From: Burkholderia seminalis DSM 23518
GTDB lineage: Bacteria; Pseudomonadota; Gammaproteobacteria; Burkholderiales; Burkholderiaceae
DNA length: 64,000 nucleotides
Assembly: GCF_902832885.1 (NCBI RefSeq)
Contig: NZ_CADFDK010000004.1
Coordinates: 219,655-283,654, forward strand
Reading direction: 5' to 3'
The number at the start of each line of letters is the position of its first letter. The stretch's first letter is position 1. The position numbers and the translations under genes are program-made. The notes under the pieces were generated by a model. The model was not told the DNA's origin. It saw nothing but the letters and a program-made list of their open reading frames with translations, and ran no database searches. This document shows, one piece after another, positions 23,959-61,050 of this stretch.

Positions 23959-25200
23959 ATGAAAGTATCGGCAGACATTCGTGCACTGATCGAGCGGCGC
24001 AAGGAAGGGCACAGCCTCGAGGCGCCGTTCTACACGAGCGAGGACATCTTCGCGCTCGACATGGAGGCGATTTTCCGCCAGCACTGGATCCAGGTGGCGG
24101 TCGAACCGGACATTCCCGAGCCGGGCGACTACGTGACGGTCCAATTGGGGAGCGATTCGATCCTGATCGTGCGCGACGACGACATGGCGATCCGCGCGTT
24201 CCACAACGTGTGCCGTCACCGCGGCGCGCGCCTGTGCAACGAGGACAAGGGTTCGGTCGGCAACATCGTGTGCCCGTACCACAGCTGGACCTACAACCTG
24301 ACGGGCCAGCTGATGTTCGCCGAGCACATGGGCGAGAAGTTCGACCGCTGCAAGCACAGCCTGAAGTCGGTGCACGTCGAGAACCTCGCGGGCCTGATCT
24401 TCATCTGCCTCGCCGACGAGCCGCCGGTCGACTTCGCGCAGATGCGCGCCGAGATGGAGCCGTACCTGCTGCCGCACGATCTGCCGAGCACGAAGATCGC
24501 CGCGCAGATCGACATCATCGAGGAAGGCAACTGGAAGCTCACGATGGAGAACAACCGCGAGTGCTATCACTGCGTCGCGAACCATCCGGAGCTGACGATC
24601 TCGCTGTACGAATACGGCTTCGGCTACCAGCGTTCCGACGCGAACGCGGAAGGCATGGACGCATTCGCCGAAACGTGCGTGCGGCGCGGCAAGGAGTGGG
24701 CCGAGATGGGCCTGCCGTCCGCCGAAATCGAGAAGCTGCTCGACGTGACGGGTTTCCGCACGCAGCGCCTGCCGCTCGACCGCAGCGGCGAATCGCAGAC
24801 GCTCGACGCGAAGGTCGCGTCGAAGAAGCTGCTCGGCGGCTTCGACAAGGCCGACCTCGGCGGCCTGTCGTTCTGGACGCAGCCGAACTCGTGGCACCAC
24901 TTCATGAGCGATCACATCGTGACGTTCTCGGTGATCCCGCTGTCGGCCGGCAAGACGCTCGTGCGCACGAAGTGGCTCGTGCACAAGGACGCGAAGGAAG
25001 GCATCGACTACGACGTGAAGAACCTGACGGCCGTGTGGAATGCGACCAACGACCAGGATCGCGCGCTCGTCGAGTTCTCGCAGCGCGGCGCGAACAGCAG
25101 CGCGTACGAGCCGGGCCCGTATTCGCCGTACACGGAAGGTCTCGTCGAAAAATTCTCGGCATGGTACATCGGCCGGCTCGCCGAAAAAACCGGCGAATAG
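23959..25200 (+). CDS. gbcA: Glycine betaine monooxygenase, Rieske oxygenase subunit GbcA
   Basis: 413-residue Rieske non-heme iron oxygenase that removes one methyl of glycine betaine, giving dimethylglycine and formaldehyde. The Rieske [2Fe-2S] ligands are C85, H87, C105 and H108 (VCRHRGARLC...CPYHSW). The mononuclear iron histidines are H204 and H209 (NNRECYHCVANHPEL). The length is standard. The start is ATG at 23959, preceded by a ribosome site (GGAGCAAACG). It is downstream of the ETF pair and upstream of its reductase gbcB, but an unusual leader separates it from gbcB. Confidence 0.95.
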   Translation: MKVSADIRALIERRKEGHSLEAPFYTSEDIFALDMEAIFRQHWIQVAVEPDIPEPGDYVTVQLGSDSILIVRDDDMAIRAFHNVCRHRGARLCNEDKGSVGNIVCPYHSWTYNLTGQLMFAEHMGEKFDRCKHSLKSVHVENLAGLIFICLADEPPVDFAQMRAEMEPYLLPHDLPSTKIAAQIDIIEEGNWKLTMENNRECYHCVANHPELTISLYEYGFGYQRSDANAEGMDAFAETCVRRGKEWAEMGLPSAEIEKLLDVTGFRTQRLPLDRSGESQTLDAKVASKKLLGGFDKADLGGLSFWTQPNSWHHFMSDHIVTFSVIPLSAGKTLVRTKWLVHKDAKEGIDYDVKNLTAVWNATNDQDRALVEFSQRGANSSAYEPGPYSPYTEGLVEKFSAWYIGRLAEKTGE

Positions 25201-25229
25201 GTCATAGCAGCGGACAAGCGGAGCAACTG

Positions 25230-25316
25230 ATGAAACGATCCCCACGCTCACTGCGTTCCCTGCCCCCCACGGGGGCGGTCAGCCTCCTTGGGGCGGCCCT
25301 GCGGAGGCTGACATGA
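25230..25316 (+). CDS. 28-codon leader ORF overlapping the gbcB start
   Basis: An ATG at 25230 (29 bases after gbcA, with GGAG at 25220-25223) opens a 28-residue frame starting MKRSPRSLRSLPPTGAV. It runs through the whole hairpin at 25278-25312 and stops with the TGA at 25314-25316, which overlaps the gbcB start (ATGATG from 25313). The frame is therefore placed so that a translating ribosome would melt the hairpin that hides the gbcB ribosome site. The peptide has no homology I recognise. The layout is directly visible; the regulatory role is inferred. Confidence 0.55.
   Translation: MKRSPRSLRSLPPTGAVSLLGAALRRLT
25278..25312 (+). promoter_or_regulatory. Hairpin masking the gbcB ribosome binding site
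   Basis: Perfect 10-bp inverted repeat: GTCAGCCTCC at 25278-25287 and GGAGGCTGAC at 25303-25312, 15-base loop. The right arm contains the only good Shine-Dalgarno sequence for gbcB (GGAGG, 25303-25307), 5 bases from ATG 25313. The stem therefore occludes initiation unless opened. There is no T run, so it is not a terminator. From memory, similar GC-rich elements recur between genes in Burkholderiales; I could not check this here. Confidence 0.7.
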
Positions 25317-26461
25317 TGCGAGACGCGGCCAATTTCGAGCCGACGGACAGCCGGGTCACGCGCCCGGCGTTCTGGAACGGCCTGCCCGAGCGCTGGACGA
25401 GCGACGTCGAGGAAACGCTGGTGTGCTGCCACGTGCGGCAGGAAACGCACGACGTGAAGAGCTTCTTCTTCCGTTCGCCGCAGGGCCGCACGTTCTCGTT
25501 CGAGCCCGGGCAGTTCCTCACGCTCGAGCTCGACATCGACGGCGAAACGATCAACCGCTGCTACACGATCTCGTCGTCGCCGGCGCGACCGCACACGGTG
25601 TCGATCACGGTGAAGCGCGTGCCGGGCGGCAAGGTGTCGAACTGGCTGCACGACAACCTGCAGCCCGGCGCCTCGGTGCGCGTGCTCGGCCCGGCCGGCG
25701 AGTTCACGTGCGCCCGGCATCCGGCGCGCAAGTACCTGTTCCTGTCGGCCGGCTCGGGCGTCACGCCGCTGATGTCGATGAGCCGCGCGCACCACGATCT
25801 CGCGGAAGATCGCGACATCCTGTTCGTGCACAGTGCGCGCACGCCGGACGACATCATCTTCGCGCGCGAGCTGGACCTGATCGCGTCGAACCATGCGAAC
25901 TTCCGCACGTCGTTCGTCGTCGAGCGCGTGGGCGCGCGCACGAACTGGCCGGGTGTCACGGGCTTCCTGACGCTGCCGCTGCTGAAGCTGATCGCACCGG
26001 ACTTCATGGAGCGCGAGGTCTTCACGTGCGGCCCCGCGCCGTACATGAAGGCCGTGCGCGACCTGCTCGACGAAGCCGGTTTCGATCGCAAGCAGTATCA
26101 CGAGGAAAGCTTCTCGTTCGAGACGCTCGCGCAGACCGCGAGCGACGAGCTGCTCGCCGATCTCGTACCGCCGGCCGAAGGCGGCGACACCGACACGAAG
26201 CAGTACACCGTCAGCTTCGCGAAGAGCAACCGCGAGATTTCGTGCGGCTCGGAGCAGCACGTGCTCGACGCGGCGCGCCAGTCGGGCGTGCGGCTGCCGG
26301 CCTCGTGCACGCAGGGCATGTGCGGCACCTGCAAGGTGAAGCTCGTGTCGGGGCAGGTCGAAATGAAGCACAACGGCGGCATCCGCCAGCGCGAGATCGA
26401 CCAGGGGATGGTGCTGCTGTGCTGCAGCAAGCCGCTGTCGGATCTCGTGATCGACAAGTAG
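25313..26461 (+). CDS. gbcB: Glycine betaine monooxygenase reductase subunit GbcB
   Basis: 382-residue flavin/iron-sulfur reductase supplying electrons to GbcA. It has an N-terminal ferredoxin-NADP+ reductase-type FAD domain (NRCYTISSSP, residues about 80-90) and an NAD(P) domain (LFLSAGSGVTPLMSM, about 142-156; FTCGPAPYMKAV, about 238). The C-terminal [2Fe-2S] ferredoxin has CTQGMCGTCKV near 325-335 and a fourth Cys in LLCCSK. The start is ATG at 25313 or the adjacent ATG at 25316; the GGAGG at 25303 suits either. Its initiation region lies in the hairpin described separately. Confidence 0.94.
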   Translation: MMRDAANFEPTDSRVTRPAFWNGLPERWTSDVEETLVCCHVRQETHDVKSFFFRSPQGRTFSFEPGQFLTLELDIDGETINRCYTISSSPARPHTVSITVKRVPGGKVSNWLHDNLQPGASVRVLGPAGEFTCARHPARKYLFLSAGSGVTPLMSMSRAHHDLAEDRDILFVHSARTPDDIIFARELDLIASNHANFRTSFVVERVGARTNWPGVTGFLTLPLLKLIAPDFMEREVFTCGPAPYMKAVRDLLDEAGFDRKQYHEESFSFETLAQTASDELLADLVPPAEGGDTDTKQYTVSFAKSNREISCGSEQHVLDAARQSGVRLPASCTQGMCGTCKVKLVSGQVEMKHNGGIRQREIDQGMVLLCCSKPLSDLVIDK

Positions 26462-60685: not shown

Positions 60686-60880
60686 TTTGCCGTTTCCTAA
60701 AGCTCGTGCGGTTTCGGCCTTGGCAGTGGATGTCACTACCCGATGGCGAATCCGTAGCGGTTTCCATGAGTGGTGCGCTAAATGTAAGCGTCTGTGACCG
60801 GAAAAAACATCCTGTCTGGCTCAAATTACCTTTTGCCGATTTAGAAACAATCCACGCTTATTTTCGTGGAAACCACAGAC

Positions 60881-60910
60881 AAAAACGCCCCGGACGGGAA
60901 GTCCGGGGCG
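60881..60910 (-). terminator. Strong intrinsic terminator with no protein gene upstream
   Basis: On the minus strand: perfect 10-bp stem (right arm 60901-60910, left arm 60886-60895), 5-base loop, then TTTTT at 60885-60881. Nothing coding precedes it on this strand within 400 bases. Confidence 0.88.
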
Positions 60911-61050
60911 GAAAATCGGCCCGCGCACCGTGTCTGCTCGCCCAGTCACGGTGTCCATCGCCGGGGGACGGAGTGCCCGCAGGGATCGAAGGCGGGCGGA
61001 GAGGCGATGGGTGAAAAGCGCGGTCCGGCAACGCCATGATGGCGTGCTGA
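60881..61050 (-). ncRNA. Candidate structured small RNA
   Basis: On the minus strand the 130-170 bases before the terminator fold into an ordered set of perfect stems. ACGCC/GGCGT pairs 61031-61035 with 61041-61045. An 8-bp stem pairs 60955-60962 with 61003-61010, enclosing a 6-bp stem (60975-60980 with 60992-60997). A 7-bp stem pairs 60926-60932 with 60947-60953. The 10-bp terminator stem comes last. There is no long ORF. The 5' end is not fixed; a CTGACA (minus strand, about 61085-61090) could be its -35 box. Confidence 0.5.

Follow-up and report, generated by a model that had tools for sequence, protein, structure and literature searches.

A dispersed 83-nt repeat with a leader reading frame and a hairpin over the start region lies between gbcA and gbcB in Burkholderia seminalis

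Between gbcA and gbcB of Burkholderia seminalis DSM 23518, a short ORF runs through a hairpin that contains the ribosome site of gbcB, and ends on the gbcB start codon. The question raised by this locus is whether such a leader serves gbcB in particular, for instance by matching the reductase to the oxygenase as a sequence-only reading of the DNA had suggested, or belongs to something more widespread. The relevant features are listed below in coordinates of the window, i.e., the whole stretch of 64,000 nt that was analyzed. The names gbcA and gbcB are provisional because the best NCBIfam matches score below the curated cut-offs (467 bits vs 670 for gbcA and 412.6 bits vs 500 for gbcB).

23959..25200, plus strand: gbcA (oxygenase subunit), upstream of the cassette; best NCBIfam match NF058607 GbcA
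25220..25223, plus strand: GGAG, ribosome site of the leader; from sequence
25230..25316, plus strand: leader ORF, 28 codons and TGA; from sequence, frame kept across the repeat family
25230..25312, plus strand: 83-nt repeat unit, the start-codon cassette; recurs elsewhere with identical ends, missing from 51 of 65 orthologous gaps
25262..25276, plus strand: small hairpin, C-run paired with G-run; from folding, pairs almost invariant
25278..25312, plus strand: main hairpin over the gbcB Shine–Dalgarno (SD) sequence, arms 25278–25287 and 25303–25312; from folding and covariation
25303..25307, plus strand: GGAGG, SD sequence of gbcB brought by the cassette, within the right arm; from sequence
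25313..26461, plus strand: gbcB (reductase subunit), behind the cassette; best NCBIfam match NF058606 GbcB

One copy of a dispersed repeat

The sequence-only reading had described the site itself correctly. The stretch GTCAGCCTCC (25278–25287) is perfectly complementary to GGAGGCTGAC (25303–25312), giving the 10-bp perfect inverted repeat that it had placed at these coordinates, with GGAGG in the stem. The 28-residue ORF with its own ribosome site is also as claimed: its ATG (25230–25232) lies 29 nt past the end of gbcA (25200) and 6 nt behind GGAG, its 28 codons reach 25313, and its TGA (25314–25316), within the gbcB start, overlaps the ATG at 25313 (ATGATG). The leader frame is open from 24210 to 25316 (368 aa), and no upstream stop marks where the leader begins; its start is inferred from the GGAG spacing and from the ATG found at the 5′ end in 107 of 111 copies of the family.

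The main 35-nt hairpin folds at −25.3 kcal/mol, a value matched by none of 200 shuffled sequences (z = −4.3), and the small hairpin at −11.2 kcal/mol (z = −2.2). The longer stretch 25190–25345 is less exceptional, with z = −1.9 and 10 of 200 shuffles folding as well, which speaks for a chance hairpin combined with a chance ORF in GC-rich DNA. The probability of that explanation is practically nil, since the 83-nt unit recurs with the same ends in 56 of the 65 genomes of the genus and its stem covaries; recurrence, more than folding, rules out chance.

This recurrence emerged from the search for further copies that the sequence-only reading had proposed. With the site region as the query and approximately 13 candidates scored per genome, up to 14 matches were found per genome, and the recurring stretch extends from the leader ATG through the gene ATG. 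Tandem copies share an ATG and have a period of approximately 83 nt. The genome studied here carries further copies before a D-Ala-D-Ala ligase gene and before an S4-domain gene. In a sample of the family, 63 of 299 genomes matched, as did 6 of 25 genera. For diverged copies, a covariance model built from 43 copies gave matches in at least 51 of 399 genomes and at least 32 of 158 genera of the order, figures that are lower bounds because 11 candidates were scored per genome under strict filters. Across the class, 369 genomes gave six with a match to the same model, three of these in the order; the three genomes outside the order gave weak matches (L413, L414, and L415). Carriers include many Burkholderia, a Paraburkholderia, a Trinickia, an Azonexus MAG, Variovorax, Acidovorax, and Azoarcus, and a single genome of 3.0 Mb gave 45 matches at E ≤ 0.01, of which the weakest are short. 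Searches of phage records and of 5,426 complete Escherichia coli genomes for the element gave no match.

Comparison of orthologous gaps was informative about how the unit is placed. The gbcB gene is present in all 65 genomes; the gap before it holds the unit in 14 (one of them degenerate) and is without it in 51. Empty gaps have GGAG within the last 14 nt before gbcB in 50 of 51 cases, and in filled gaps GGAG precedes the leader ATG in 14 of 14. As this shift shows, the unit has taken over the ribosome site of the gene and brings a new one. In other words, we conclude from the alignments that the unit sits between a ribosome site and the start codon which that site serves in empty relatives, the old site now preceding the leader and the 3′ end of the unit providing a new one, in a hairpin, before the ATG. 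In a tree of the gbcA–gbcB flanks, presence of the unit is scattered and the deep branches are empty. Many nodes have low support and the root was set by choice on L128/L129; therefore, only the patchiness and the empty deep branches are used here, and not counts of gains or losses. One empty gap (L119) ends in GCGGAGGCTGAC, 12 nt identical to the 3′ end of the unit, and is probably a deletion remnant.

Similar variation was seen elsewhere. Before a murC-like gene, 3 of 30 genomes read are filled (30 of 65 matching genomes were read at this locus), and at two further loci (30 of 58 and 30 of 65 genomes read) empty, filled, tandem, and longer forms are all present. Inspection by eye of four loci for a target-site duplication showed ATGA at both ends of the unit. 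The few bases just before the leader, also compared by eye, are not the same in filled and empty forms at three of these loci (gbcB, the murC-like gene, and the fourth locus); at the third locus they match one empty type.

Taken together, the sequence comparisons identify the hairpin and leader at gbcB as one copy of a dispersed 83-nt repeat and not as a device specific to gbcAB. The proposal that the arrangement matches reductase to oxygenase finds no footing, as the unit is missing at gbcB in 51 of 65 genomes and precedes unrelated genes elsewhere.

Placement at start codons

In near-full copies, the 3′ end of the unit abuts an ATG in 109 of 111 cases and the 5′ end is an ATG in 107 of 111; these copies are the best-scoring matches to a query containing both ATGs, which favors ATG-ended copies, and many of them are orthologues. 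The set was obtained from 138 copies by removing identical ones and requiring at least 75 of 86 nt to be aligned, and it spans 48 different downstream starts. The earlier reading had allowed that the repeat might be a widespread intergenic one with no tie to downstream starts. Widespread it is; untied to starts it is not.

Independent annotations support this placement in part. Of twelve sequence records inspected, five list genes, and in three of these five the annotated start is the ATG right behind the unit (Variovorax WDL1 zwf, a Variovorax PBL-E5 permease, and an Azoarcus KH32C methylesterase), and a separate leader ORF is annotated in none of the five. For Paraburkholderia largidicola sdhE (L221, 1494–1850), the annotated start is the leader ATG, because the leader (84 nt, stop-free) runs in frame into the gene; this is either a leader–gene fusion or a start placed too far upstream. 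In Acidovorax temperans, a unit-like stretch (L225, approximately 1491–1565) lies inside the phosphoglycerate kinase gene, in frame and not at the start. Solved kinases align on both sides of this insert of about 25 residues (approximately residues 32–56 of the protein), which is missing from the best-matching solved kinase. A wrongly annotated start was considered for this copy and excluded, as the sequence and the comparison with solved kinases place it within the gene.

Upstream of the unit, an open frame of at least 70 codons ends −10 to +4 nt from the leader ATG in 35 of 50 gene groups, some of these frames being accidental in GC-rich DNA; the junction is most often TGA-N-ATG or ATGA. An A directly after the start is enriched (43 of 49 groups vs 20 of 31 baseline starts, P = 2e-4), but the baseline is small and no weight is placed on this result.

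The genes behind the unit include those for a Mur ligase (murC-like), D-Ala-D-Ala ligase, guanylate kinase, dCTP deaminase, alanine racemase, LysR and response-regulator proteins, and others. A Pfam run on 20 selected downstream genes showed riboflavin-synthesis, SIS/amidotransferase, PEP-utilising, cyclase, and alanine racemase genes behind diverged copies, as well as a phenylalanyl-tRNA-synthetase-like domain set, biotin carboxylase, SoxZ, and a Mu Gp27-like gene. These downstream genes share no common function. At seven places (L023, L029, L032, L155, L158, L161, and L168), a frame beginning MNGPARSLR right behind a copy resembles a diverged leader of the family; hence, older units may hide as short ORFs.

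Selection on stem and frame

In the 100 unique copies of exactly 86 nt, the outer stem is paired in 951 of 1000 cells, compared with 914 ± 2 (maximum 922) when partners are shuffled. Unit position 76, the A of GGAGG, is kept in 98 of these copies and its partner, position 56, in 86. Among 42 distinct copies before different genes, 7 of 10 outer-stem pairs have changed on both sides and 97.0% of cells pair, against 44–52% for slid partners; the covariation score was reached by 0 of 500 shuffles. At the gbcB locus alone (13 of 14 copies, the degenerate L101 being excluded), three pairs and seven cells have changed on both sides. Shuffles, which in all these tests leave the relatedness of the copies in place, reached the number of both-side-changed pairs there in 41 of 500 cases and the number of pair types in 293 of 500; the numbers of paired cells and changed cells and the score were reached in 0 of 500. 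Such compensatory changes argue that the main stem is under selection. The downstream initiation region lies within this conserved stem, although GGAGG is not found in every copy.

The reading frame of the leader is also kept. Counted from leader ATG to gene ATG, 120 of 126 unique intervals are 2 mod 3, at lengths of 62, 83, 104, 113, 131, 203, and 206 nt, with 65 and 134 nt added at one locus; the frame is thus kept through length changes of 18 to 123 nt, and the stop overlaps the gene ATG in 112 of the 126. Off-frame lengths are 82, 85, 103, 130, and 132 nt, to which looser matching adds 64, 84, and 127 nt (one copy each) and the comparison of units within single loci one copy of 78 nt. Of 136 Burkholderia-type units, 124 have the first stop of the leader frame no more than 8 nt from the gene start, versus 6 and 8 for the other two frames; among 40 diverged copies (18 lengths) the count is 32, versus 3 and 6. 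In the remaining 12 and 8 units, respectively, the leader stop is not near the start. An internal stop occurs in the leader frame of 0 of 111 unique 83-nt units, compared with 105 and 7 for the two alternative frames. The locus with the lengths 65 and 134 nt still has ATGA at the end of 20 of 22 units, some of them at full length with 78–84% likeness to the consensus and eroded stems, and at a second locus this holds for 24 of 28. In longer units (L257–L286 and L382–L411), additional hairpin-like modules separate the head from the C-run. These units, with few exceptions that are mostly one base off, keep the frame, and internal modules of differing sequence share only the frame.

The peptide shows no comparable signature. 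A search for peptide selection gave 34 synonymous events against 31.9 expected (P = 0.35), i.e., no excess, and in a codon-position test on the 100 unique copies third positions were not clearly more variable. It follows from these counts that the frame of the leader is what selection maintains, its peptide sequence being free to change, and that the leader stays free of internal stops and in phase, which places its own stop (ATGA or TGA-N-ATG) on the gene start. Translation to the end of the leader seems to matter, and its product does not.

These results divide what the sequence-only reading had offered. The geometry of translational coupling stands, with stem pairing and leader frame conserved, and control by the leader peptide gains no support, there being no synonymous excess. 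As for the gap alignment across the genus that it had called for, the unit is present in 14 of 65 genomes; in the copies of the family as a whole, stem pairing and frame are conserved and selection at the codon level is not seen. That reading had also considered sensing of a translation or metabolite state, which is not supported by a peptide of this kind and by unrelated downstream genes. A short ORF over a hairpin before a gene is what a classical leader-peptide attenuator, or a riboswitch sensing an amino acid, metabolite, or translation state on behalf of gbcB, would look like. We nevertheless consider such a sensor highly improbable: most genomes (51 of 65) have gbcB with no unit before it, the unit precedes genes of no fixed pathway, synonymous changes show no excess, modules of different sequence retain just the frame, and comparison of the element with Rfam gave nothing above the family cut-offs.

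Diverged members of the repeat show which parts are shared. Other families retain CCCCCACGCTC, the hairpin of C-run and G-run, and the TTGGGGCGGCCCGGC loop, and their arms vary from copy to copy yet remain complementary, in a comparison restricted to the 76 of 91 core matches that have a stem (score ≥6). Of these 76 copies, 57 have a recognizable leader start and 40 a downstream ATG. Of 51 copies having a downstream ORF, 15 have the start codon itself within the right arm, and for L299 a cyclase-family gene has its first codons covered by the arm GATGAAAAAG. In L187, L188, L288, and L292, the stem is present and GGAGG is missing. Masking of the SD sequence is, therefore, not universal, and the common element is a stem over the initiation region together with the stop/start register, and not the SD sequence alone. 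Pairing that persists in copies lacking GGAGG would also be expected if the hairpin served mainly mRNA stability, processing, or transcription pausing, with the ORF incidental; this we regard as very unlikely, since it leaves the leader frame and the stop/start register unexplained. In 17 of the 57 copies with a leader start, no ATG opening 60 codons was found within 30 nt (GTG and TTG were not counted), so that some diverged copies are not at starts. By eye, five copies from other families (L331, L335, L337, L341, and L353) appear to be away from gene starts.

A spreading cassette and its relation to known systems

Our preferred reading, to which we assign a probability of roughly three in four, is that the unit is a spreading translational-relay cassette of which one dispersed copy stands before gbcB. 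A ribosome starting at the old GGAG would read the leader through the stem and thereby melt the hairpin. On terminating at the gene ATG, it would either restart there or leave the SD sequence accessible to another ribosome. The gene would thus be translated via the leader, and its translation would be low when the leader is not translated to its end. Insertion of the unit would keep the coupling to the upstream gene and be near-neutral for the gene itself. Such a cassette could spread because its insertion is nearly transparent to expression, and this near-neutrality, with coupling retained, could explain why it is tolerated before genes taken to be essential. The in-frame copy inside the phosphoglycerate kinase gene would fit harmless read-through of the stretch by ribosomes. 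Several observations count against a relay: the cassette is dispensable at gbcB (51 of 65 genomes are without it), several old copies at one locus have eroded stems with the frame kept, the leader stop is away from the start in 12 of 136 and 8 of 40 units, the sdhE leader runs into its gene, the A. temperans stretch lies within a gene, some copies have a stem and no GGAGG, and some diverged copies are not at starts.

A less likely reading, to which we still give some weight, is that the unit is simply a selfish dispersed repeat which survives at starts since it brings its own SD sequence and ATG, so that stem and ORF are by-products of copying with no effect on expression. Its patchiness at orthologous sites, the tandem copies, the many copies in some genomes, the lack of a common function downstream, and the in-frame copy inside a gene are all compatible with this. 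By contrast, a frame kept through large length changes and in eroded copies, and compensatory changes within the single gbcB locus, point to a need at the site. The two readings may partly merge, in that a selfish element could be forced to be transparent to translation; the relay cassette remains the reading followed below.

The leaders of synthetic bicistronic designs consist of a short cistron that covers the SD sequence of the gene and whose stop overlaps the start of the gene; they are engineered and have no fixed stem. The cassette resembles them in layout and differs in being natural, in having a fixed stem, and in being spread over an order. REP/BIME elements are dispersed short palindromic repeats that are extragenic and have no tie to starts, and a REP-associated tyrosine transposase in the genome is taken as a mark of such repeats. 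Rickettsia palindromic elements lie inside ORFs and keep the reading frame on insertion. Both kinds are, like the cassette, short dispersed repeats bearing palindromes, and the A. temperans phosphoglycerate kinase copy resembles the Rickettsia elements in that the frame is kept. Unlike both, the cassette lies mostly on start codons (3′ ATG in 109 of 111 copies) and has a separate ORF.

For translational coupling, models of RNA unfolding and of termination–reinitiation have both been described (PMC12548453; PMC6728339). The coupled genes described there share with the cassette the stop/start overlap, an initiation region in a stem, and upstream translation through that stem; they are individual gene pairs, whereas the cassette recurs before unrelated genes as a dispersed repeat that brings its own ORF, SD sequence, and start. 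The CruR-type upstream ORF of Bordetella is likewise a regulatory upstream ORF in a betaproteobacterium; it encodes a conserved DUF2946 protein, is followed by a long gap to the next gene, has no stop/start overlap, and involves Rho-dependent termination (PMC9426467). The Betaproteobacteria toxic small RNA RF02278 is a repeated short Burkholderia element with CCTCC/GGAGG motifs that differs from the cassette in its sequence and in a terminator-like end (PMC4603805). It was excluded as the identity of the element, as a search with thresholds up to E = 5 placed no copy of it at the site; five matches to it lie elsewhere in the genome (L038–L042, on C19, C5, C8, C20, and C4), four of them above the cut-off.

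Rfam gave no gathering-level match at the gbcB site, nor on copies of the element from 20 diverged loci. With the threshold relaxed to E ≤ 5, the site had four matches, all far below the cut-offs, to microRNA, lncRNA, and prion-pseudoknot families. The sole gathering-level match in the window is RF02868 ncS037 (Burkholderia sRNA 37) at 60880–61029 on the minus strand (131 bits). Six sequence stretches of the element had no match in the open-access literature, and no description of it was among the matches listed there, as judged by title and opening of the abstract. A coupled leader and a stem placed over a start are each known, and no dispersed family carrying both from one start codon to the next was described among these matches; there is a fair chance that it forms a class of its own.

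More tentatively, and at somewhat less than even odds in our judgment, such start-codon cassettes may constitute an undescribed class of dispersed element: bicistronic leaders of natural origin that insert between the ribosome site of a gene and its start, in which the frame would be selected and the peptide irrelevant, and whose arms vary from copy to copy in other families and pair over the initiation region of each gene. They would be a natural case of ORFs that are conserved in frame and indifferent to peptide. If this is true, many unrelated genes of the Burkholderiales, essential ones included, would be under obligatory leader translation, and Mur ligase, D-Ala-D-Ala ligase, alanine racemase, and guanylate kinase would be translated through a dispersed leader. 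The filled and empty orthologues would then offer a ready system for separating the unfolding and reinitiation models of translational coupling.
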